Assembly: GCF_008039565.1 (NCBI RefSeq)
Contig: NZ_VDUX01000001.1
Span: 496,001-560,000 of the forward strand
Direction of reading: 5' to 3'
DNA from: Aeromicrobium terrae
Lineage (GTDB): Bacteria; Actinomycetota; Actinomycetes; Propionibacteriales; Nocardioidaceae
DNA: 64,000 bases
A model generated the notes under the pieces. The model did no database searches and was not told the origin of the DNA. It worked only from the letters and a program-made list of their open reading frames with translations. How positions within the stretch are numbered: position 1 is the first letter of the stretch; every line of letters begins with the position of its first letter. This document shows, in pieces, positions 5,343 through 44,197 of the stretch. Position numbers and translations under genes: made by a program.

Positions 5343-5431
5343 TGGTGTCCGAGGGGGGACTTGAACCCCCATGCCCGTAACCGGGCACTAGCACCTCAAG
5401 CTAGCGCGTCTACCAATTCCGCCACCCGGAC
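5343..5431 (-). tRNA. tRNA-Leu (anticodon GAG)
   Basis: The transcript has a 7-bp acceptor stem (GTCCGGG with CTCGGAC, one G-U), the D-arm box TGGCGGAATTGGTAGACGC, an anticodon stem CTAGC/GCTAG and the loop TTGAGGT giving anticodon GAG (complement at 5395-5397). There is a long variable arm typical of leucine tRNAs (GTGCCCGGTTACGGGCAT), and the T-arm is GGGGG-TTCAAGT-CCCCC. The discriminator is A, and the CCA end is encoded at 5343-5345. Confidence 0.97.
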
Positions 5432-31600: not shown

Positions 31601-33033
31601 CCGACGGCTCCTTCCATCTGCAGCTCGATGAGCCGGTTCAGCTCGAGGGCGTACTCCATCGGGAGCTCCTTGGCGATGGGCTCGATGAAGCCGCGGACGA
31701 TCATCGCCATGGCCTCGTCCTCCTCCATGCCGCGGGACATGAAGTAGAAGAGCTGGTCGTCGCTGAGCTTGGAGACCGTGGCCTCGTGGCCGAGCGTGAC
31801 GTCGTCCTCGCGCACGTCGACGTACGGGTACGTGTCGGAGCGGCTGATCTGGTCGACGAGCAGGGCGTCGCACTTGACCGTGCTGGCCGAGCCCTCGGCG
31901 CCCTCAAGCACCTGGAGCAGGCCGCGGTACGACGTGCGGCCGCCGCCACGCGCGACCGACTTGCTCAGGATCGAGCTCGACGTGTTGGGCGCGGCGTGCA
32001 CCATCTTGGCGCCGGCGTCCTGGTGCTGGCCCTCGCCGGCGAACGCGACCGACAGGGTCTCGCCGCGGGCGTGCTCGCCGAGCAGGTAGACCGCCGGGTA
32101 CTTCATGGTGACCTTGGAGCCGATGTTGCCGTCGACCCACTCCATGGTGGCGCCCTCCTCGCAGGTGGCGCGCTTGGTGACCAGGTTGTACACGTTGTTC
32201 GACCAGTTCTGGATGGTCGTGTACCGCACGCGGGCGTTCTTCTTGACGACGATCTCCACGACCGCGGAGTGCAGCGAGTCGCTGGAGTAGATCGGCGCGG
32301 TGCAGCCCTCGACGTAGTGCACGTAGGAGCCCTCGTCGGCGATGATCAGCGTCCGCTCGAACTGGCCCATGTTCTCGGTGTTGATGCGGAAGTAGGCCTG
32401 CAGCGGGATGTCGACGTGGACGCCCGGCGGGACGTAGATGAACGAGCCGCCGGACCACACGGCGGAGTTCAGCGCGGAGAACTTGTTGTCGCCGACCGGG
32501 ATGACGGTGGCGAAGTACTCCTGGAAGATCTCCGGGTGCTCCTTGAGCGCCGTGTCCGTGTCCAGGAACAGGACGCCCTGCTCCTCCAGGTCCTCGCGGA
32601 TCTGGTGGTAGACGACCTCGGACTCGTACTGGGCGGCGACGCCGGCGACGAGGCGCTGCTTCTCCGCCTCGGGGATGCCGAGCTTGTCGTAGGTGTTCTT
32701 GATGTCCTCGGGCAGCTCTTCCCAGCTGGTGGCCTGCTTCTCCGTGGACCGCACGAAGTACTTGATGTTGTCGAAGTCGATGCCGTCGAGCTCCGCGCCC
32801 CAGGTGGGCATGGGCTTGCGCTCGAAGAGGCGCAGGCCCTTCAGCCGCAGGTCGAGCATCCACTCCGGCTCGTCCTTGAGTCCGGAGATGTTGCGCACGA
32901 CGTCCTCGCTCAGGCCGCGGGCCGCGATGGCACCGGCCTCGTCGGAGTCGGCCCAGCCGAAGGCGTAGCGCCCGACGTCCTTGAGGCCGGGGTTCGCCTC
33001 CTCGATGGCGTTGGTCTCGTGCGTCGTGGTCAT
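31597..33033 (-). CDS. sufB: SufB, scaffold subunit
   Basis: A 478-residue core scaffold protein on which [Fe-S] clusters are built. Family marks include [23 protein letters not shown], the segment [26 protein letters not shown], and [22 protein letters not shown] with the conserved cysteine. It ends with the SufB/SufD-common [25 protein letters not shown]. It overlaps sufR by 4 bp upstream and sufD downstream. Confidence 0.96.
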
Positions 33034-33740
33034 GAACGCAACCTCTCTGAGTCAGCCCTGGGATCCGGGCGGGTGGTCTGGTGCGGCAGGTGGGTGGTGC
33101 AGACGCCGTCGCCGTGGGCGATCGTCGCGAGTCGTTGGACGTGGGTGCCGAGCAGCCGGGAGAACATCTCGGTCTCGGCGTCGCACAGCTGCGGGAACTC
33201 CCCCGCGACGTGCGCGACCGGGCAGTGGTGCTGGCAGATCTGCTCGCCGGACGTCGTCGAGCCTACGGACGCCGCATAGCCGTCGGTGGTGAGCGCGTCA
33301 GCCAGCACCTTGGCGCGGTCGGCGGGCTTCGCCTTCTCCACGAGGGGCCGGTAGGTCTCCTCGAGCTCGGCGATGCGGCGCCGGGCGAACTCGGCCACGG
33401 CCTCGTCTCCCCCGGTCTGCTGCAGGAAGCGCATCGCCTCGGCGGCGAGCGCGTCGTAGGCGTGACCGAAGTGGTCGCGGCCGGCGTCGGTGATGACGAA
33501 GACCTTGGCGGGGCGGCCGCGGCCGCGGTGGCCGCGGATGCGCTTGTCGCGCGCCTCGACGACGCCGTCGGCCAGCAGCTGGTCGAGATGGCGGCGCACG
33601 GCCGCGGGGGTCAGCCCGAGGTTCTCGGCGAGATCGGCAGCCGTGGACGGCCCGTTCTCGAGGATCGCCGTGGCCACGCGCTCACGGGTGGGCGCGTCGT
33701 CGACGACCGACGACACCTGGTCCTCCCGCATGTTTTTCAC
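33030..33740 (-). CDS. sufR: SufR, Fe-S sensing repressor of the suf operon
   Basis: A 236-residue transcription factor. The N-terminal winged helix (residues 18-80) reads [24 protein letters not shown] and has a basic [10 protein letters not shown] wing. The C-terminal cysteines C169-x3-C173-x12-C186-x27-C214 have exactly the spacing of the [4Fe-4S] ligands of mycobacterial SufR. It should repress the operon when Fe-S supply is adequate and release on cluster loss, by analogy. The GTG at 33740 was chosen because CACACT lies 6 nt upstream; an ATG at 33731 is the alternative. Confidence 0.95.
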
Positions 33741-33801: not shown

Positions 33802-36800
33802 TCAGCTCGCGGCCTGCGCAAACGTGGCGTCGGAGTGCGCCTCGGCCACGACCAGGTCGATGCCCGGGGTGATGCCGAGCAGGTTGTTGGCGACGGTGAT
33901 GAAGACCCGCACGCCCCGGACGGTGAGGCCACTGTGGGTCGCACCGGTGCAGGTGTGCGTGTTGGTGTTCACGCCGTTGTCACAGAGCTGCTCGTTGATG
34001 ACGACGAAGCCGATGCCGGGCAGCGTGATCACCTGGTTCGGTTCTCCGGTGACCGTGATGGGTATGCCGAGCACGCTCAGGTTGGCGATCGTCGTCCCGG
34101 AGTCGACAGAGCTCGCCCCTGATGCCTTGGCCGTGGTTCGCGACTCGGCCCGGACGGCCGTCGCCTTCACGACACACGTGGCCGCCGACTTCAGGACACA
34201 GGCCGGCGACGCGGTGTTGCCCGCGAGCTCCGCGTAGCTGTGCGACGTCGCCTGGGTGCCGCTGATCGAGCCGACCGACGAGCTGTCACCGGCGAGTGCC
34301 GAGACGATCTTGCCGCTCGCCGGGACGTTGACGCCCGCGACGTGCTGGCTCTCGGCGCCGCCCAGCGGCGAGATCTGCACGTAGCCCTGGAGGATGTTCT
34401 CCAGGATCGGCGCGGTGTGCAGGCCGGCCACCAGGGCGTGGCCGCTCACCGTGCGGTTGAACGCACCCGAGCAGACCTTCGACGCCGGGTAGTCGCTGTG
34501 CGACACCGCCTGGGCCACGATGACCTCGGCCTTCTGGAGCCCCAGGAGTCCGGTGATCTTGACGTGGATCATCGTCACCGTCTGGTCGGCCATGTAGGCG
34601 TCGCCCACGAGCCCGGCCCGCGGCTGGGCGCCGACGCCCGGACCGGACCGCTCACCGATGGTGACGAAGCTGTTCTTGCCGAAGACACCGGCCGGCAGCG
34701 GGATCCGCGTCGTCTGGTTGAGGTCGACCGGCGTGACGATGCCGGCGATCTTCAGCCTCGTGATCGTGGAGCCGGCCGAGCTGACCGTCGCCGTCGACCC
34801 GTTGGCCGTGGTGGAGGAGACCGCGCGGACCGCGTCCGCCTCCACGGTGCAGATGCCGGCCACCGGCAGGACGCAGATGTGTCCGACCTCGGACGTCGCG
34901 GTGTGCCGCGCCTCGTTCGGTGCCGGCGTGACCATGCTCGAGCTCGTCGTCGTGAGGACGTCGGCCTTCACCAGGTTGCCCACCTTGATGTTGAGCAGCG
35001 AGTCGTCGTCGAGCACCGGACCGCCCGGACCGGTCTGGCTGGTCGCCGACAGGCTGAGCGGCGCCTGCGCGCCACCGAGGTTGAGCAGGCCGGACGCGAG
35101 CACCTGGATGCCGCGGGCGTTGCCGATCGCGTGCGCACCGGCCGGGTCACCCTTCGGCGTGACGTTCGTCGTCACCGAGTTCGACGACACCGGGTCGCCG
35201 AGGCCGAACCGGATGCTCGCCACGTTCGTGACCTGGCACGACTCGTTGCCGGTCACCCGGACGGTCAGCGTGACCGAGCCCGTGCCGCCCTTCGGCGCCA
35301 CCGGCCCGACGGCCCAGTCGGCACTGGTGACCTTCGGGTTGCCGGTCGTGACACAGCCGCCGGTGCAGCTGACGTAGGCCGTGGAGGCCGGGATGGCGTC
35401 GTGGATCATCGCCGTCGGGGCCTCGGCCGGGCCGGCGTTCGTGTACGTCAACCGGTAGGTCAGGAACTCCGTCCCGTTCTCGTCGGTCTCGTGGTCCTGG
35501 AGCGACTTCACCAGGCTGAGCTCCGGAGCCGCGGTCACACAGACCGTGACCTCCTGCGGCTCGTCGTCACCGATGGCCACCGCGTTGACGATCGGGTACT
35601 CGCCCGCGTCACACGTGCCGCCGCCGGAGGCGCCGGTGAAGGTCGCCGGCATCTCCGCCGTGTACGTGAACACCTTCGCGCCACCGGCCGGAACGCTGCC
35701 GGAGTCGCACGAGAAGCGCTCGTTGCCACCGTCGGTGAGGAGCGTGCACTCCCCGCCCTGGGACGCGCTCGTCGGGAGCGCCGGGTCCAGGACGTCGTCG
35801 AAGTCGTCGACGAAGGTCGTGCTGCCCGGCGCCGAGCCGGTGTTGGACACGGTGAGCGTGTACTTCACCGTGTCGCTGGGCCCGACGGTGTCCTTGTCGA
35901 CCGACTTGGTCACCGCGAGCTTCGGCTCGGTCTTGACGCAGACGAGCACGCTGTCGCCGGCGCCCTCGTCGCCGATCTGGACGTCGTTGTCGATGGCGTA
36001 CTCGTCCTCACCGCAGCGCTCGTCCGTGCCGGGCTCGCCGGTGAAGGTCAGCGGCATGGCGGCGGAGTACTTGAAGATCCGCTCGCCGCCCGCCGGGATC
36101 GAGGTGGTCTCGCACTCGAACGTGCGGTTCTCACCGGTCCCCTCCTCGCAGCTGCCGCCGCCCGGAGGAACCGTCGCCGGCAGCGTCGGCTCGAGGAGGT
36201 CCTCGAAGTCGTCGGTGAACGACGTCGCACCGGGCGCCGAGCCGATGTTCCGCACGGTGATCGTGTAGTTCACCGTCTGGCCCGGGGAGGCGGACTCGCC
36301 CTCCTCGACGTCGGAGGTCTTGTCGACGTCGAAGTCCGGCGCCGCGTCCACGCAGACGCTCGCTCCGGTCTCCTCCTCGCCGTCGACGAGCACCGTGTTG
36401 ACGACCTCGTAGCCGGAGCACGTCTCGGTGTCGTCCGGATCGCCCTCGAAGGTCTTCGGCATGTCCACCGTGTACTGGAACGTCTGGTTGTCACCGGCGA
36501 GGATCGTGCCCGTCTCGCACGAGAGGCGCTCGTTCCCGCCGTCGGTCAGCAGCTCACAGCCGGCCGGGATGTCGGCGTCGTCACCACTGAGGTCCAGCCG
36601 GTCGTCGAAGTCGTCGACGTACGAGCCCGAGCCCGCGGCCTTGCCGTGGTTCGTCGCGACGATGGTGTACGTGACCGGGTCGCCCGGACCTGCGGAGTCG
36701 GCGTCGGCAGTCTTCTCGAACGTGATGTCCGGCGCGGCCGTCACGCAGACGGTCTCCGACGCGGACGGACCGCCGTCGTCGATCGAGACGTCGTTGACGA

Positions 36801-39800
36801 TCGGGAACTCACCGGCCCGGCACGGTTCCGCACCGGACTCGCCGGTGAAGCTCGCCGGCATCAGGACGTTGTAGCTGATCGTCTGGGTCTCGTCCGGGTC
36901 GATCGAGCTGGTCTCGCAGCTCAGGACGTTGCCTGCGACGTCGCAGTCGGCACCCGTCGGGTCGGACGAGATGGCGACGTCCTCGTCGAGCGTGCCCTCG
37001 AACTCGTCGGTGAACGACGTCGACCCGGGCTCCGAGCCGATGTTCTCCACCGTGATCGTGTACTTGACCGACTGCCCCGGCAGGACCGTCGCGTCGTCGG
37101 CCAGATCGGCCGCCTTGGCGATCGAGAAGCCCGCCTCGGTGTCGACGCAGACCGTCACCGAGTCGTCGTCGTCCTCGTTCTCCTCGGTCGCGCCGTTCAG
37201 CTCGACGGTGTTGACGACCGGGTAGTCGGTCGGGTCCTGGCACCCCTCGGCGGGCGTGCCGGTGAACGAGCCCGGCATGTTCACCGTGTACTGGAACGTC
37301 TGGTGGTCGTTCGGGCCGGTCGGGTCGATCGAGCCCGTCGTGCAGGAGAGGCTCTCGTTGTCGTCGTCCCCGTCGACCAGCTCGCAACCGGCCGGGATGT
37401 CGGCGCCGTCATCGGTGAAGTCGAGCACGTCGTCGAAGTCGTCGACGAACGTCGTCGACCCGGCGAGCGAGCCCTTGTTGGTGACGGTGATGGTGTACGT
37501 CACCGGCTGACCCGGCGTCGTGCTGGCCGTGCTGGCCGACTTCTCGATGACGAACTTCGGAGCCGCGGTCACGCAGACCGTCTCCGAGTCGACGCCCTGG
37601 CTGGACGGGCTGAGCAGCGTCACCAGGTTGAAGATCGGGTACTCCCCGTCCTCACACCCGTCGTCCGGCGTGCCCGAGAAGGTCGTGGGCATGTCGGCCG
37701 TGTAGGTGAAGTCCCGGCTCTCGCCTGCCTCGATCGTGCCCGTGGTGCAGGTCAGGATGCCGCCGTCCTCCTCACAGCTGCCGCCGGCGGAGGTCACCGC
37801 GGACGGGTCGATGCTGTTCGCGAAGTCGTCCGTGAAGGTCGTGGCACCGGGCGCCGACCCGTTGTTGGTGACCGTCACGGTGTACTCGACGGTCGTCCCG
37901 GGTGCGACCGGGTTGTGGGCGTCGGACGTCTTGTGGACCACCAGGTCCGGCGCCGCCGCCACGCAGACCGTGACCGACTGGGGCGCACCCTCGTCGGGGG
38001 TCAGCTCGTTGACGATCGGGTACTCGCCGTCGTCACAGACGCCTCCGCCGGACGCACCCGTGAACGTGTCCGGCATCAGGACGTTGTAGGTGATCGTCTG
38101 CGTCTGCCCGGGGTTGATCGAGCCGGTCTCACAGCTGATGACGTTGCCGTCGACGTCGCAGTCGGCACCCGTCGGGTCGGACGCGATGGCGACGTCCTCG
38201 TCGAGCGTGCCCTCGAACTCGTCGGTGAACGACGTCGATCCGGGCTCCGAGCCGGTGTTCGTGACAGTGATCGTGTACTCCACCGACTGGCCCGGCTCCG
38301 CGGTCTCGTCGTCACCGATCTCGGACGACTTCTCGACGGTGAACGCAGCCTCGGTGTCCACGCAGACGGTCACGGTCGACGGGTCGTCGCCCTCGACGGT
38401 CGCCGTGTTGACGATCGGGTAATCGCTCGCGTCCTCACAGCCCTCCTCCGGTGCCGTGCTGAACGACAGCGGCATGTGCGCGGTGTACGTGAACTCTTGG
38501 GACTCGCCCGGATCCAGGTCGCCCGTCTCGCAGAGCAGGACGTCGTTGCCGAGCGTGCTCTTCACGCACGAGCCGTCCGTGATGGAGGCTCCCGACGGAT
38601 CGTCGTCATCGGTGACGCGGTCGTCATAGTCGTCGACGAACCCGGTCGAGCCGGGAGCGGCGCCGGTGTTCTTGACGACGACCTTGTAGGTCACGAGGGC
38701 GCCCGGTGCGACGGTCTCGCCCTCCGGCACGTTGGACGTCTTCTCGATCGAGAAGGCCGGCGACGCGACGACACAGACGGTCGTCGAGGCCGGGTCCACA
38801 CCCGCGATCGTCGCGGTGTTGACGACCGGGTAGGCACCGTCGTCACAGTCCCCGACACCGGACGGGCCGGTGAAGGAGGTCGGCATCGACACGGTGTACG
38901 TGAACGTCTGGTCCTCGTCGGCTGCGAGCGGGTTCGTCTCGCACGAGAAGCTCTCGTTGCTGGTGTCCTCGTCGACGACCAGCTCACAGCCCGTGGGGAT
39001 GTCGGCGTCGTCGCCCGTGAAGTCGAGAGCGTCGTCGAAGTCGTCGACGAACTCGATCGATCCGGCCGCCGTGCCGACGTTCTTGACCGTCACCGTGTAG
39101 GTGACGGAGTCGCCGGGACCGACGGTCTCACCGGGGTCGAGGTTGGTCGACTTGGTGATCGTGAAGTCGGACGCCGCGGCGATGCAGACCGTGACGGCGT
39201 CGCTGCCGCCGTCGTTCGCCAGCGTCGCGGTGTTTTCGACCGGGTACTCGCCGGCGTCGCAGACGCCGCCGCCGGACTCTCCGCTGAAGGTCGACGGCAT
39301 CGCCGCGGTGTACGTGAACGTCTTCTCGGCGTTGGGCGCGAGCGAGCCGGTCTGACAGGACAGCTGCCCGCCGGCCTCGTCGCAGGTGCCGCCGGACACG
39401 GCCGACGGGTCGATGCTGCCGTCGAAGTCGTCCACGAACGTCGTGGACCCGTTGGCGGTCCCGGTGTTCTTCACCACGACCTTGTACTCCACGAGCTGGC
39501 CGGGGCTCGCGGTGTACTTCTGCGGGTTGCCGGAGCCGACCGGCGTCGCGTCGGTCGTCTTCGTGATGCTGAAGGACGAGGCCGCGGTGACGCAGACCGA
39601 CGAGGAGGCGCTCGAGCCGTTGGCCAGGGTCGCCGTGTTCTTCACGAGGAACTGAGTCGACGAGCAGGGCGTGCCGCCTGGGTCCTTCGTGAACGACGCC
39701 GGCATGTTCGCGGTGTAGGTGAACACCTGCTCGCCGCCGCCGTTGATCGTCGAGGTCGTGCAGGACAGCTGTCCACCGGCCTCGTTACAGGTGCCGCCGC

Positions 39801-40773
39801 TCACCGCGGACGGATCGACGGCGTCGTCGAAGTTGTCGACGAACGTCGTCGAACCCGACTGCTGGCCGGTGTTCTTCACCGTGACCTTGTACTCGACCTG
39901 CTGACCAGTGGAGGCGGTGATCGAGCTCTGACCGTCGACGGTCTTCGTGATCGTGAACGCAGCCGGCGTGAGCGACTGCACCGCCCCGGCCTGGAGCTGG
40001 TTGTCGCCGCCACCCAGAGAGTTGTCGATGTGGTACGAGGAACCGGGCGCGTGCGAACCGCCGAGGTCGACGCCCCAGGCACGAGGCTGGCTCGGGCCGC
40101 CGCTGACCGCCACGTGGCCACCGAACAGCAGGACGGCCGGACCGCCTGAGGCGGAGGTGGACTTGAACTTCAGGGTGACGCTCGCGGTGTCGTCGGCATT
40201 CTGGTTGGCCGCGGCGGAGTGGGTGACAGCGGTCGTCGAGATCAGCTCGGCGCCGTACATCGTCCACTTGCGGTCGGCGGCGGGCAGCTCGTGACTGTTC
40301 GCGAGGACGCCCGCACCGTTCGTCGACGCCGAGGCGATGCCGGCACCGATCGGCGGCACGACCGTCGAGTCCGACGCCATCTGCAGCGTGGACGGGGTGC
40401 CGGAACAGATGGAGGCCGCCAGGCCCTGGCAGGGGTCGGCCGTCGTCGTCGTGTAGTTCCACGTCGCCAGTGAGTCGTACGTGTGCTTGCCGCCCTTGCG
40501 GGCCATGTAGTTGATCGTGACCGTGTACTCGGCCCCGTCCGTCAGGTTCATGGCGATCCGCTGCGGCACCGAGTCGTCCTCCCGGTAGTGCGAGTTGCCG
40601 CTGCCGAGGCCACCGTTCACCCAGCCGCCGGCGCAGCTGGTGGCAGTGCCGGTGCCGTTGGCGCACTGCTGGAACGACGCGAGCGACACGGAGCCGACGG
40701 CTTCCGTCGTGGGAACGAACACCAAGAACGTGGTGGCCAGCAACGCTGCGGGGATCAGCTTGAACCGGGACAC
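33802..40773 (-). CDS. Giant secreted DUF11-type repeat protein
   Basis: A 2,323-residue exported protein of unknown function, likely an adhesin or surface-matrix component. A signal peptide (about residues 1-25, ending TTEA) is followed by a Gly/Ser-rich N-domain (26-271). Then come eleven DUF11-like Ig-fold repeats of about 125-145 residues, starting near 272, 401, 537, 674, 811, 944, 1074, 1216, 1350, 1481 and 1619. A divergent twelfth is at 1752-1870. The last 450 residues are two related Cys-paired beta domains resembling choice-of-anchor regions. Each canonical repeat has four cysteines. No LPXTG motif or C-terminal membrane anchor is visible. It is very acidic. GGAGG precedes the GTG start. 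Confidence 0.9.
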   Translation of the reverse strand: MSRFKLIPAALLATTFLVFVPTTEAVGSVSLASFQQCANGTGTATSCAGGWVNGGLGSGNSHYREDDSVPQRIAMNLTDGAEYTVTINYMARKGGKHTYDSLATWNYTTTTADPCQGLAASICSGTPSTLQMASDSTVVPPIGAGIASASTNGAGVLANSHELPAADRKWTMYGAELISTTAVTHSAAANQNADDTASVTLKFKSTSASGGPAVLLFGGHVAVSGGPSQPRAWGVDLGGSHAPGSSYHIDNSLGGGDNQLQAGAVQSLTPAAFTITKTVDGQSSITASTGQQVEYKVTVKNTGQQSGSTTFVDNFDDAVDPSAVSGGTCNEAGGQLSCTTSTINGGGEQVFTYTANMPASFTKDPGGTPCSSTQFLVKNTATLANGSSASSSVCVTAASSFSITKTTDATPVGSGNPQKYTASPGQLVEYKVVVKNTGTANGSTTFVDDFDGSIDPSAVSGGTCDEAGGQLSCQTGSLAPNAEKTFTYTAAMPSTFSGESGGGVCDAGEYPVENTATLANDGGSDAVTVCIAAASDFTITKSTNLDPGETVGPGDSVTYTVTVKNVGTAAGSIEFVDDFDDALDFTGDDADIPTGCELVVDEDTSNESFSCETNPLAADEDQTFTYTVSMPTSFTGPSGVGDCDDGAYPVVNTATIAGVDPASTTVCVVASPAFSIEKTSNVPEGETVAPGALVTYKVVVKNTGAAPGSTGFVDDYDDRVTDDDDPSGASITDGSCVKSTLGNDVLLCETGDLDPGESQEFTYTAHMPLSFSTAPEEGCEDASDYPIVNTATVEGDDPSTVTVCVDTEAAFTVEKSSEIGDDETAEPGQSVEYTITVTNTGSEPGSTSFTDEFEGTLDEDVAIASDPTGADCDVDGNVISCETGSINPGQTQTITYNVLMPDTFTGASGGGVCDDGEYPIVNELTPDEGAPQSVTVCVAAAPDLVVHKTSDAHNPVAPGTTVEYTVTVTNNGSAPGATTFTDDFANSIDPSAVTSAGGSCEEDGGILTCTTGTIEAGESRDFTYTADMPTTFSGTPDDGCEDGEYPIFNLVTLLSPSSQGVDSETVCVTAAPKFVIEKSASTASTTPGQPVTYTITVTNKGSLAGSTTFVDDFDDVLDFTDDGADIPAGCELVDGDDDNESLSCTTGSIDPTGPNDHQTFQYTVNMPGSFTGTPAEGCQDPTDYPVVNTVELNGATEENEDDDDSVTVCVDTEAGFSIAKAADLADDATVLPGQSVKYTITVENIGSEPGSTSFTDEFEGTLDEDVAISSDPTGADCDVAGNVLSCETSSIDPDETQTISYNVLMPASFTGESGAEPCRAGEFPIVNDVSIDDGGPSASETVCVTAAPDITFEKTADADSAGPGDPVTYTIVATNHGKAAGSGSYVDDFDDRLDLSGDDADIPAGCELLTDGGNERLSCETGTILAGDNQTFQYTVDMPKTFEGDPDDTETCSGYEVVNTVLVDGEEETGASVCVDAAPDFDVDKTSDVEEGESASPGQTVNYTITVRNIGSAPGATSFTDDFEDLLEPTLPATVPPGGGSCEEGTGENRTFECETTSIPAGGERIFKYSAAMPLTFTGEPGTDERCGEDEYAIDNDVQIGDEGAGDSVLVCVKTEPKLAVTKSVDKDTVGPSDTVKYTLTVSNTGSAPGSTTFVDDFDDVLDPALPTSASQGGECTLLTDGGNERFSCDSGSVPAGGAKVFTYTAEMPATFTGASGGGTCDAGEYPIVNAVAIGDDEPQEVTVCVTAAPELSLVKSLQDHETDENGTEFLTYRLTYTNAGPAEAPTAMIHDAIPASTAYVSCTGGCVTTGNPKVTSADWAVGPVAPKGGTGSVTLTVRVTGNESCQVTNVASIRFGLGDPVSSNSVTTNVTPKGDPAGAHAIGNARGIQVLASGLLNLGGAQAPLSLSATSQTGPGGPVLDDDSLLNIKVGNLVKADVLTTTSSSMVTPAPNEARHTATSEVGHICVLPVAGICTVEADAVRAVSSTTANGSTATVSSAGSTITRLKIAGIVTPVDLNQTTRIPLPAGVFGKNSFVTIGERSGPGVGAQPRAGLVGDAYMADQTVTMIHVKITGLLGLQKAEVIVAQAVSHSDYPASKVCSGAFNRTVSGHALVAGLHTAPILENILQGYVQISPLGGAESQHVAGVNVPASGKIVSALAGDSSSVGSISGTQATSHSYAELAGNTASPACVLKSAATCVVKATAVRAESRTTAKASGASSVDSGTTIANLSVLGIPITVTGEPNQVITLPGIGFVVINEQLCDNGVNTNTHTCTGATHSGLTVRGVRVFITVANNLLGITPGIDLVVAEAHSDATFAQAAS
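35523..39960 (-). repeat. Eleven tandem DUF11-like repeats
   Basis: Units of about 130 codons share x-I-x-K-T at the start, GSTTFVDDFDD in the middle and TVCV at the end. Units 5 (near 37945-38343) and 8 (near 36730-37128) are almost identical in their central parts and lie 1,215 bp apart. Confidence 0.85.
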
Positions 40774-40923: not shown

Positions 40924-43044
40924 TCAGTGAATCGGTTTTTCCGCGTGATCCCGGGCCTCGTCGCCGTGTCCGGGCCACCAGGCCGCGTGCCCGATGAGCG
41001 CGGTGAGCGACGGCGTGAAGAACATCGCCATCACGAACGCCGCCACGAAGATGCCGAACGAGAGGGCGAAGCCCATCGACTGGATCAGCGGATCTCCGCC
41101 GAGCATGAGCGCCGCGAACGTGCCGGCCAGGATCAGTCCGGCCGCCGCGATCGTGGGACCGGCATGACGGACCGCCTCCGCGGCAGCGGCCCGCGAGTCC
41201 TTGCCTTCTCGTGCCTCCTCGCGGAGCCGGGCGATCATCAGGATGTTGTAGTCGGTGCCCAGCGCGACGACGAACAGATAGATGTAGATGGGCAGCATGA
41301 AGATGAGGCCGGACTCCCCCTTCACGTGCTGGAAGAGGATCACGGTGGCACCGAGCGTGGCGCCGAACCCGAGGCCCACGGACGCCATCAGGTACCACGG
41401 CGCGACGAGGCTGCGCAGGAGCAGGCCCAGGATGATCATGATCACCAGCGCGGCCACCGGGAACACGATGGAGTAGTCGCGGTTCATCGCCTTCTGGAGG
41501 TCGACGAACACCGACGTGGTGCCGCCGACGAGGGCCTCGGTGCCGTTCGGCGCCGCCGCGTGCGCGCCGTCGCGGATCGGTCCCTTGACCGCGGCGATCG
41601 AGGCGTCGGAGCCCGGGTCGCCCTCGAGCAGCGCGTTGAAGAGTGCGGTGGAGCCGTCCTTGGACGGGGTGGCCGGAGCGACGGCGGCGATGCCGTCGAG
41701 CGCCGCGAGGTCGGACCGGAACGCGGTCAGGTCCGAGGCGGGGATGGGCTTGCCATCGTCGGACTTCAGGATGACGGCCGTGGGATCCGTGGCTCCCTTG
41801 GGCAGACCCTTCTGCAACGTGTCGAGCGCCTTCGTGGACTCCAGGTTCTTGGGGAGGCTGGAGTTGAAGTCGAACGACGGGTTGAACCCGATGGCGAAGA
41901 TGGCGAGCACGGCGAGCGCGATGCCGGAGGCGAGGGCGAACCGGGCGGGCCGCTCCCCCAGCGTCGTGCCGATCCGCGCGAACCGGCTGCCGGTGGACGG
42001 CACGGCCCACTTCTTGGACGGCCAGAACAGGGCGCGTCCGAGCAGGCGCATGCACGCCGGCACGAGGGTGAGTGCGGCCAGCAGCGTCGTCGCGACGGCG
42101 ATCGCGAGCGCGGGACCGATGGACCGGAAGATGCTCAGCGACGAGAGGACCAGCGCCATGAAGCTGACGATCACCGCGCCGCCCGCCGACGCGATGGCCT
42201 CGCCGGCCCGGCCGAGGGCGTGGACGATCGCCTCCTTGGGCTCCTCGCCGGTGCGCAGCCGCTCCCGGTAGCGGAACAGCAGGAACAGGATGTAGTCGGT
42301 GCCGATGCCGTACAGCACCACGATCAGGATGACCTCGATGGAGCTGTCCGCCTTGAGGTCGAACGCCTCGTTCGCCCAGGCGATCAGGCCGTTGGCGATC
42401 GTCGAGACAAGCGCCACCACGGCGATGGGCAGCAAGCAGATGATGACGCTGCGGAAGATGATCGCGAGCAGCACGATGATCAGCCCGATGGTGGCGATGC
42501 CGACGATGGCCAGCGTCTTCTCCGACGAGTCCTGCGAGTCGAGGCTCTGGGGTGCGGCGCCGGTGGTCTGCACGCGCAGGTCGGTGCCCTTGACGAGGTC
42601 CTTGAGCGTGGAGCGCAGCTCCTTGGCACCGTCGATCGAGGGGGTGTCGAAGCCGGTGGCGTTGTCCGCCAGCCCGACCGCGCCGATCTGCACGAGCCGG
42701 TTCTCCGCCGGCGGCTGCGCGGCTCCCGGCGTGAACACCTTGGGCAGATCCTGGTTCAGCTCGTCCATCACCCGCGTGACGTCGGCGCTGTCCGCATCGG
42801 TGAGCTTGCCGCCGTCCTTGCGGTCGAACACCAGGATCGCGCCGGGACTGCCCTGTCCGGGGAACGCGTCGGCACGGATCGTCTCCGCCTTGATCGACTC
42901 GTAGTGGTCGGGCAGGAACTCGGCCTCGTCGGTGGTGGACGTCAGGGCCGGCGCGGTCATGACCACGACGACCGCGATGACGACCCACGCGGCGATGACG
43001 TACCAGGGATGACGAGAGATGAAACGACCCACGGAGGTGAACAC
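40924..43044 (-). CDS. MMPL family RND transporter
   Basis: A 706-residue inner-membrane exporter of the MmpL/RND superfamily. It has the two-half topology: one helix after the N-terminus (PWYVIAAWVVIAVVVVM), a large extracytoplasmic loop, then five helices, repeated once. The proton-relay motif GTDYILFLLFRYRE is in TM4 and GTDYNILMIARLREE in TM10. MmpL proteins export lipids or siderophores, or provide drug efflux; the cargo here is unknown. The GTG at 43044 lies 7 nt after TACGTT and avoids overlap with the divergent primase gene, unlike the ATG at 43089. Confidence 0.9.
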   Translation of the reverse strand: MFTSVGRFISRHPWYVIAAWVVIAVVVVMTAPALTSTTDEAEFLPDHYESIKAETIRADAFPGQGSPGAILVFDRKDGGKLTDADSADVTRVMDELNQDLPKVFTPGAAQPPAENRLVQIGAVGLADNATGFDTPSIDGAKELRSTLKDLVKGTDLRVQTTGAAPQSLDSQDSSEKTLAIVGIATIGLIIVLLAIIFRSVIICLLPIAVVALVSTIANGLIAWANEAFDLKADSSIEVILIVVLYGIGTDYILFLLFRYRERLRTGEEPKEAIVHALGRAGEAIASAGGAVIVSFMALVLSSLSIFRSIGPALAIAVATTLLAALTLVPACMRLLGRALFWPSKKWAVPSTGSRFARIGTTLGERPARFALASGIALAVLAIFAIGFNPSFDFNSSLPKNLESTKALDTLQKGLPKGATDPTAVILKSDDGKPIPASDLTAFRSDLAALDGIAAVAPATPSKDGSTALFNALLEGDPGSDASIAAVKGPIRDGAHAAAPNGTEALVGGTTSVFVDLQKAMNRDYSIVFPVAALVIMIILGLLLRSLVAPWYLMASVGLGFGATLGATVILFQHVKGESGLIFMLPIYIYLFVVALGTDYNILMIARLREEAREGKDSRAAAAEAVRHAGPTIAAAGLILAGTFAALMLGGDPLIQSMGFALSFGIFVAAFVMAMFFTPSLTALIGHAAWWPGHGDEARDHAEKPIH

Positions 43045-43051
43045 GAGGATC

Positions 43052-43057
43052 AACGTA
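43052..43057 (-). promoter_or_regulatory. -10 element TACGTT of the MMPL gene
   Basis: TACGTT lies 7 nt before the GTG at 43044. The primase promoter faces away 18 bp further right. Confidence 0.5.
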
Positions 43058-43075
43058 TCGGAGCGTTCCCACGCA

Positions 43076-43081
43076 TAAGGT
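43076..43081 (+). promoter_or_regulatory. -10 element TAAGGT of the PrimPol gene
   Basis: TAAGGT is followed by GAGGTC (6 nt) and the ATG at 43088. The spacer also resembles a weak ribosome site. Confidence 0.5.
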
Positions 43082-43087
43082 GAGGTC

Positions 43088-44197
43088 ATGGCGTCAAAGG
43101 CTGCGGCGGTGGAGGTCGACGCCGGTGGCCGCGCCGTCCGGGTGTCGAGCCCGGACCGTGTCATCTTCCCGGCCTCCGAGCTCGGCCCGGACGTCACCAA
43201 GCTGGAGGTCGTCGAGTACTACGTCGCGGTCGCCGACGGCATCGTGCGGGCCCTGCGCGACCGGCCCACGTCGCTGGAGCGCTGGCCCAAGGGCGTGCTG
43301 CCCGGGATGCGGCTCACCGCGCGGGACGCGACGCACGGCCGCGGGCCGCAGGGCGACGCGTTCTACCAGAAGAGACTGATGCGCGGGATGCCCGAGTGGG
43401 CCAGGTCGGCGCGGGTGCACTTCCCGTCCGGGCGCATCGCCGACGAGCTGTGTCCAGACCACGTCGCCGTCGTGGCCTGGGCCGCCCACATGGGCACGAT
43501 CACGTTCCACCCGTGGCCCACGCGCGCGGACGACAACGACCGGCCCGACGAGCTGCGCATCGACCTCGACCCGTACGGATCGACGTCGTTCGTCGACGCC
43601 GTGCGCGTCGCCGGCGCGGCCAAGGACCTGCTCGACGAGCTCGGCCTGGTCGGCTTCCCGAAGACGAGCGGCAAGAACGGCGTGCACGTCTACCTCCGCA
43701 TCGAGCCGCGCTGGACGTTCACCGACGTCCGGCACGCGGCGATCGGGTTCGCGCGCGAGCTCGAGCGTCGCGCGGACGGCGTCACCACGGCCTGGTGGAA
43801 GGAGGAGCGCGGCGACAACGTCTTCGTCGACTTCAACCAGAACTCCCGCGACCGCACCATCGCGAGCGCCTACAGCCTCCGGCCCAAGGAAGGTGGTCCG
43901 GTCTCCACCCCCGTCACCTGGGACGAGCTGGCGGACCTCACCGACCCGCGCGAGTTCACCCTGCGCACCGTGCCCGCCCGGCTCGCCTCGATCGGCGACC
44001 CGATGGCCGCCATTGACGACGTGCAGCAGTCGCTCGAGCCGATGCTCGACCTCTGGCGCTCCGACGTCGAGCGCGGCCTGCCGGACATGCCGTATCCGCC
44101 GGAGTACCCGAAGATGCCCGGCGAGCCCCCGCGGGTCCAGCCGAGCAAGAAGGTCGCCGACCACTGGGACGAGGACGGCAAGCGGGTCCAGTCCTGA
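43088..44197 (+). CDS. Standalone LigD-type primase-polymerase (PrimPol)
   Basis: A 369-residue archaeo-eukaryotic primase-like polymerase homologous to the polymerase domain of LigD but not fused to ligase or nuclease. Metal-binding D159-L-D161 (RIDLDP), the KTSGKNGVHVY motif and the late DFNQN block carry the active site. Such proteins (for example mycobacterial PolD1/PolD2) fill gaps with ribonucleotides in repair. A LigC-type ligase lies 1.4 kb away, but no Ku gene is in the window. Confidence 0.93.
   Translation: MASKAAAVEVDAGGRAVRVSSPDRVIFPASELGPDVTKLEVVEYYVAVADGIVRALRDRPTSLERWPKGVLPGMRLTARDATHGRGPQGDAFYQKRLMRGMPEWARSARVHFPSGRIADELCPDHVAVVAWAAHMGTITFHPWPTRADDNDRPDELRIDLDPYGSTSFVDAVRVAGAAKDLLDELGLVGFPKTSGKNGVHVYLRIEPRWTFTDVRHAAIGFARELERRADGVTTAWWKEERGDNVFVDFNQNSRDRTIASAYSLRPKEGGPVSTPVTWDELADLTDPREFTLRTVPARLASIGDPMAAIDDVQQSLEPMLDLWRSDVERGLPDMPYPPEYPKMPGEPPRVQPSKKVADHWDEDGKRVQS

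Follow-up and report, generated by a model that had tools for sequence, protein, structure and literature searches.

A probable fibrillar-adhesin-like stalk protein with isopeptide- and disulfide-locked repeats in Aeromicrobium terrae

The 64,000-nucleotide stretch of Aeromicrobium terrae DNA analysed here (the window) contains a gene whose product is, in our judgement, probably a secreted stalk protein of the fibrillar-adhesin kind, with repeats locked by isopeptide and disulfide bonds, an N-terminal domain held distally and a pair of choice-of-anchor P (choice_anch_P) domains retaining it. This reading is based on the domain content, the conservation of a Lys-Asp-Asn triad and of the cysteines, the predicted fold of two repeats and the lack of a sorting signal. 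Like a fibrillar adhesin, the protein has a signal peptide, as judged by inspection, and a long stalk of 11 repeats; the cell-surface anchor of such adhesins is missing. Because this one defining feature is lacking, we state that the protein most likely works like a fibrillar adhesin and not that it is one.

Gene and domain architecture

The gene spans exactly 33802..40773 on the minus strand, as a single open reading frame of 2323 residues with a GTG start and an RBS-like GTGGAGGAAGA upstream of it. The third-position GC content is 0.94, and the GC content of the gene as a whole is 0.687 versus 0.706 for the remaining window. An Arg-rich plus-strand frame of 1969 residues (34240-40149), antisense to the gene, was taken as a high-GC artefact. 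From the N- to the C-terminus, the protein consists of a signal-peptide-like start, a domain of about 240 residues, eleven repeats, a degenerate twelfth repeat and two C-terminal domains.

Residues 1-26 (40696..40773, minus strand) comprise a basic start, a hydrophobic core and TEA before the mature part, in keeping with the signal peptide named in a preliminary description of the locus. That description also recognized the two C-terminal domains but overlooked the N-terminal domain (residues 27-265; 39979..40695, minus strand), which contains four cysteines. Scanned alone against Pfam, this domain had no match at E 0.1. A model calculated from three sequences was poor (pLDDT 54), and a fold search with it returned no match at E 0.001. 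The domain was found in 11 of 396 Actinomycetota genomes, that of A. terrae included, and also occurs on proteins with sorting-type tails.

The repeat array covers residues 266-1747 (35533..39978, minus strand), as delimited by Pfam and NCBIfam matches and by alignment. Each repeat is 130-142 residues long and contains exactly four cysteines, so that 44 of the 58 cysteines of the protein sit in the array; random placement of the 44 reached this exact four-per-repeat distribution in 0 of 200000 trials. The spacing between the first two cysteines (C1-C2) amounts to 9 in five of the repeats and varies over 12-15 in the remaining six, with C2-C3 spacings of 31-34 and C3-C4 spacings of 22-31. All eleven repeats are acidic, with 9-30 Asp and Glu against 1-7 Lys and Arg. 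The degenerate twelfth repeat (residues 1748-1862; 35188..35532, minus strand), recognized by alignment and a DUF11 match, contains a CxxxC motif. The eleven acidic, four-cysteine, DUF11-like repeats of the preliminary description are all present, whereas the spacing of about 8 residues that it gave for the close pair holds only in part and not regularly, and the twelfth repeat had been missed. Repeats 5 (37957-38355) and 8 (36739-37140) are the most alike pair, with 79% DNA identity, which suggests a recent duplication inside the array, three repeats apart.

Pfam matches in the protein are to DUF7927 (11 stretches), DUF11 (12), DUF7507 (12) and CARDB; NCBIfam matches are to the DUF11 repeat TIGR01451 (11 stretches), RrgB_K2N_iso_D2 (7) and choice_anch_P (2). 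The family profile scores for DUF11 (250 bits), DUF7927 (265 bits) and TIGR04226 (121 bits) are all above the curated cut-offs. The 12 DUF11 matches that the genome contains all fall in this one gene.

Isopeptide triad, predicted fold and cysteine geometry

DUF11 has been renamed CLIPPER after crystallography revealed a Lys-Asn isopeptide bond, with an Asp presumed to be catalytic, and the same bond has been predicted for DUF7507 and DUF7927 (PMC12617251). The Lys-Asp-Asn triad is invariant in all eleven repeats of the stalk protein (K277, D313 and N379 in repeat 1). It is also invariant in 22 of 22 repeats when those of a homologue from Nocardioides sp. Root240 (L040) are added, at a mean column identity of 46%. 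The Lys-to-Asp spacing of 36 in repeat 1 equals that of the DUF7927 exemplar in Table 1 of the CLIPPER survey (PMC12617251). The twelfth repeat has neither Asp nor Asn at the triad columns of the alignment.

Repeats 5 and 6 (residues 807-1069; 37567..38355, minus strand) were modelled jointly with AlphaFold2 from 20 repeat pairs of the stalk protein and L040. The model is all beta, with a mean pLDDT of 90.3 and a pTM of 0.75. Its best single-domain fold match is the CLIPPER structure 9IFR (Z 14.1, RMSD 2.1 Å over 116 aligned residues, 23% identity), and compared with this entry it is a CnaA-like E-set beta-sandwich. Isopeptide pilins and adhesins, for example EbpB, BcpA, PilA and SpaD, rank below 9IFR. 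Two-domain integrin segments head the fold list at an RMSD of about 9 Å; we attribute this to a shared arrangement of two beta-sandwiches and not to kinship. When the whole protein or the repeat profile was compared by sequence with solved structures, nothing was found at E 1, not even 9IFR, which was recovered by fold comparison only. The repeats thus resemble CLIPPER (DUF11, PF01345), DUF7927 (PF25549) and DUF7507/CLIPPER_2 (PF24346) in scores above cut-off, in the Lys-Asp-Asn triad and in the CnaA-like fold. They are DUF11/DUF7927 domains, a known kind of CnaA-like isopeptide domain. In contrast to 9IFR, they have two regular cysteine pairs, placed elsewhere than its CTTC disulfide.

In the model, Cys66/Cys75 and Cys194/Cys203 lie in the hairpins E65-69/E72-76 and E193-197/E200-204. 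Since these hairpins have two-residue turns, we infer from the strand limits that C1 and C2 would face each other directly in both modelled repeats. C3 lies 7-10 residues before the triad Asn, and C4 15-21 residues after it, in 11 of 11 repeats. Three PF13462 (DsbA/thioredoxin-like) matches in the genome make disulfide formation on the export side plausible. The preliminary description had proposed a disulfide-stiffened secreted rod and named structure prediction of two adjacent repeats as a check. Domain content and fold give good support to a secreted rod or fibre, and stiffening by disulfides is plausible from the hairpin register. The proposal was nevertheless half right overall, as it missed the isopeptide triad: the main covalent lock is probably the isopeptide bond, with the disulfides added on top.

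The same description had called such disulfides unusual for this class, which they are not: isopeptide domains that also have disulfides are common in Actinomycetota. Disulfides beside isopeptide bonds are reported for 29.7% of CLIPPER, 34.9% of CLIPPER_2 and 41.3% of Actinomycetota isopeptide domains (PMC12617251). Most of the arrays that we examined contain regular cysteine pairs, with four cysteines per repeat in three actinobacterial proteins that share a related N-terminal domain (L096, L099 and L100); a notion that four per repeat was unique to the stalk protein was dropped. In the stretches of L096 and L100 inspected, C3 again precedes the Asn and C4 lies in the last strand. Corynebacterium SpaA and SpaD pilins also combine isopeptide and disulfide bonds in Ig-like domains. 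These pilins and Actinomyces FimP/FimA are short and polymerised by sortase, whereas the stalk is one long chain. FimP likewise has both kinds of bond in its Ig-like domains (PMC3485203). The giant Mobiluncus mulieris/curtisii adhesins, also from Actinomycetota, are described as having many tandem isopeptide domains, in one of which a Lys-Asn bond is accompanied by a disulfide between cysteines 8 apart, linking adjacent strands (PMC10619420). Unlike the stalk protein, they are described in that source as longer, as containing ester-bond domains too and as ending in LPxTG.

C-terminal domains and the missing anchor

The two C-terminal domains, claimed earlier to be related to each other, both match choice_anch_P (NF040603) above its cut-off of 27 bits. 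The first (about residues 1871-2095; 34489..35163, minus strand) scores 88.3 bits and the second (residues 2096-2323; 33805..34488, minus strand) 94.4 bits; the latter is flush with the stop codon. The sequence ends VVAEAHSDATFAQAAS, with no LPxTG and no transmembrane tail. The LPxTG motif, hydrophobic stretch and basic tail of a sortase-anchored protein are all missing; the preliminary description had noted the lack of an LPXTG motif and of a membrane anchor. Its remark that no sortase is nearby is correct within the window, although two sortases are encoded on other contigs of the genome.

We compared the ends of nine fetched loci with a related N-terminal domain, leaving the tails of two (L098 and L101) out of the reading. 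In five of the nine (L093, L095, L096, L099 and L100), an LPxTG or comparable FTG motif precedes a hydrophobic stretch and a basic tail; one is without a sorting tail (L094) and one is cut by its contig (L097). The choice_anch_P domain was found in 52 of 396 genomes of the phylum, with three genes in A. terrae. We classed by eye the endings at the 29 loci of the strongest matches from this search: 17 end flush like the stalk protein, a membrane-anchor-like tail is present in one (L150), and the remaining 11 are either cut or of different content. The flush, anchorless end is the usual state of proteins that end in choice_anch_P. The strongest matches lie in frames of about 350-550 codons, whereas here two tandem copies cap a stalk protein of 2.3 kilo-residues. 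Three of the four larger choice_anch_P frames that were fetched (L168, L169 and L170) have repeats and then a flush choice_anch_P pair. Two of these, L168 and L169, are long proteins from other actinobacterial families whose cysteine-paired repeats differ from those described here. A PMC search for "choice-of-anchor P" found no papers.

From these sequences, we read the choice_anch_P pair as a terminal module in the position otherwise taken by a sorting signal. It is conceivable, though we rate it doubtful, that the pair, often preceded by a degenerate CxxxC DUF11 repeat, is an autonomous, sortase-independent module for attachment or assembly, swapped in for LPxTG beneath a tip and stalk of the same kind, with small secreted proteins made of the pair alone as its free partners. 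A 418-residue secreted protein of the A. terrae genome (L001/L102, C1:654500-657500) consists of nothing but a signal peptide and a choice_anch_P pair and has neither cysteines nor an anchor. By eye, one further choice_anch_P protein has wall-binding-repeat-like stretches (L161) and another has SLH-like stretches (L171).

Proposed function and alternative readings

Once the protein is exported, a rod of eleven CnaA-like, immunoglobulin-fold repeats would probably display the N-terminal domain at its distal tip. Within every repeat, the Lys of the first strand probably bonds spontaneously to the Asn of the penultimate strand with the help of the Asp, while a C1-C2 disulfide would staple the beta-hairpin and a C3-C4 disulfide would probably link the last strand to the loop that precedes the Asn strand. 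Because every repeat would then contain an isopeptide bond and disulfides, the rod would be locked against unfolding and proteolysis. The choice_anch_P pair would probably retain the protein in the matrix or at the envelope independently of a sortase, and the putative binding domain at the distal end may mediate adhesion.

The alternative that concerns attachment is that the protein is a matrix or biofilm scaffold fibre, released without attachment to its own cell and assembled outside through its terminal domains. This fits the absence of an LPxTG or transmembrane tail, as well as the small proteins in A. terrae and its relatives that consist of just a signal peptide plus a choice_anch_P pair and mostly end flush. 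However, domains related to the N-terminal one belong to proteins with sorting-type tails, and the membrane-anchor-like tail of L150 suggests a surface role for a choice_anch_P protein; we consider a free scaffold unlikely. A much slighter chance attaches to a rod locked structurally by its cysteine pairs alone, in which isopeptide bonds do not form. The four cysteines per repeat and the hairpin register of C1 and C2 would suit it, but the Lys, Asp and Asn are invariant in 22 of 22 repeats that are otherwise far less conserved, and the predicted fold matches an isopeptide domain.

It is similarly improbable that the protein belongs to a larger envelope or S-layer-like lattice and is not an adhesin. 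Its length and acidity could suit a component of a wall lattice, and the SLH-like repeats seen by eye in L171 point the same way. An S-layer protein would nevertheless not be expected to have the patchy distribution described below, with no match at the corresponding locus, over about 1.5 kb upstream of sufR, in any of 29 relatives. We retain the reading of a retained, adhesin-like stalk, whose eleven repeats probably have three covalent locks each (one isopeptide bond and two disulfides). At 2323 residues, the chain was too long for the published AlphaFold DB survey of predicted structures (PMC12617251), which had a limit of 1280 residues. With choice_anch_P as a C-terminal module in the place of a sorting signal, sortase-free surface retention in Actinomycetota would become testable.

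Homologues and genomic neighbourhood

With the N-terminal domain as query, two loci were found among the named genomes scanned. The protein from Nocardioides sp. Root240 (L040), uncharacterised, has 2261 residues, 48.6% identity to the stalk protein and the same whole architecture, including 11 four-cysteine repeats. Both proteins have 58 cysteines, 50 of which are aligned in a global alignment. The second locus (L041), from a Jatrophihabitans MAG, encodes 1427 residues of the same architecture, comprising five four-cysteine repeats, of which one lacks the Lys, together with another DUF11 repeat and a choice_anch_P pair. The repeat profile matches 115 of 394 genomes of the class. Among the matches listed, only A. 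terrae and one genome listed as of the same family (G501) exceed 150 bits; the next scores 57 bits.

The stalk gene lies between the genes for an MMPL family transporter (40924..43200, minus strand; PF03176, 396 bits), whose true start is probably inside the frame, and for a SufR-like winged-helix regulator (33030..33740, minus strand), assigned by sequence match and with SUF genes next to it. No match to MMPL or sufR was found in 20.8 kb around L040, and therefore, unlike the stalk gene, the Root240 gene is sited elsewhere in its genome and not between these two neighbours. We used sufR to search 48 other genomes of the genus and compared 29 loci over about 1.5 kb upstream of it. At 76-178 bases from sufR, there is an MMPL gene in 6 of the 29 loci and a ligD-like gene in 12; neither was found in the remaining 11. 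None of the 29 loci has a match to any part of the stalk protein in this interval, which makes the stalk gene an accessory gene of the sufR place in this genus. The sole tRNA gene of the window, for tRNA-Leu (gag), is located at 5343-5431 on the minus strand.
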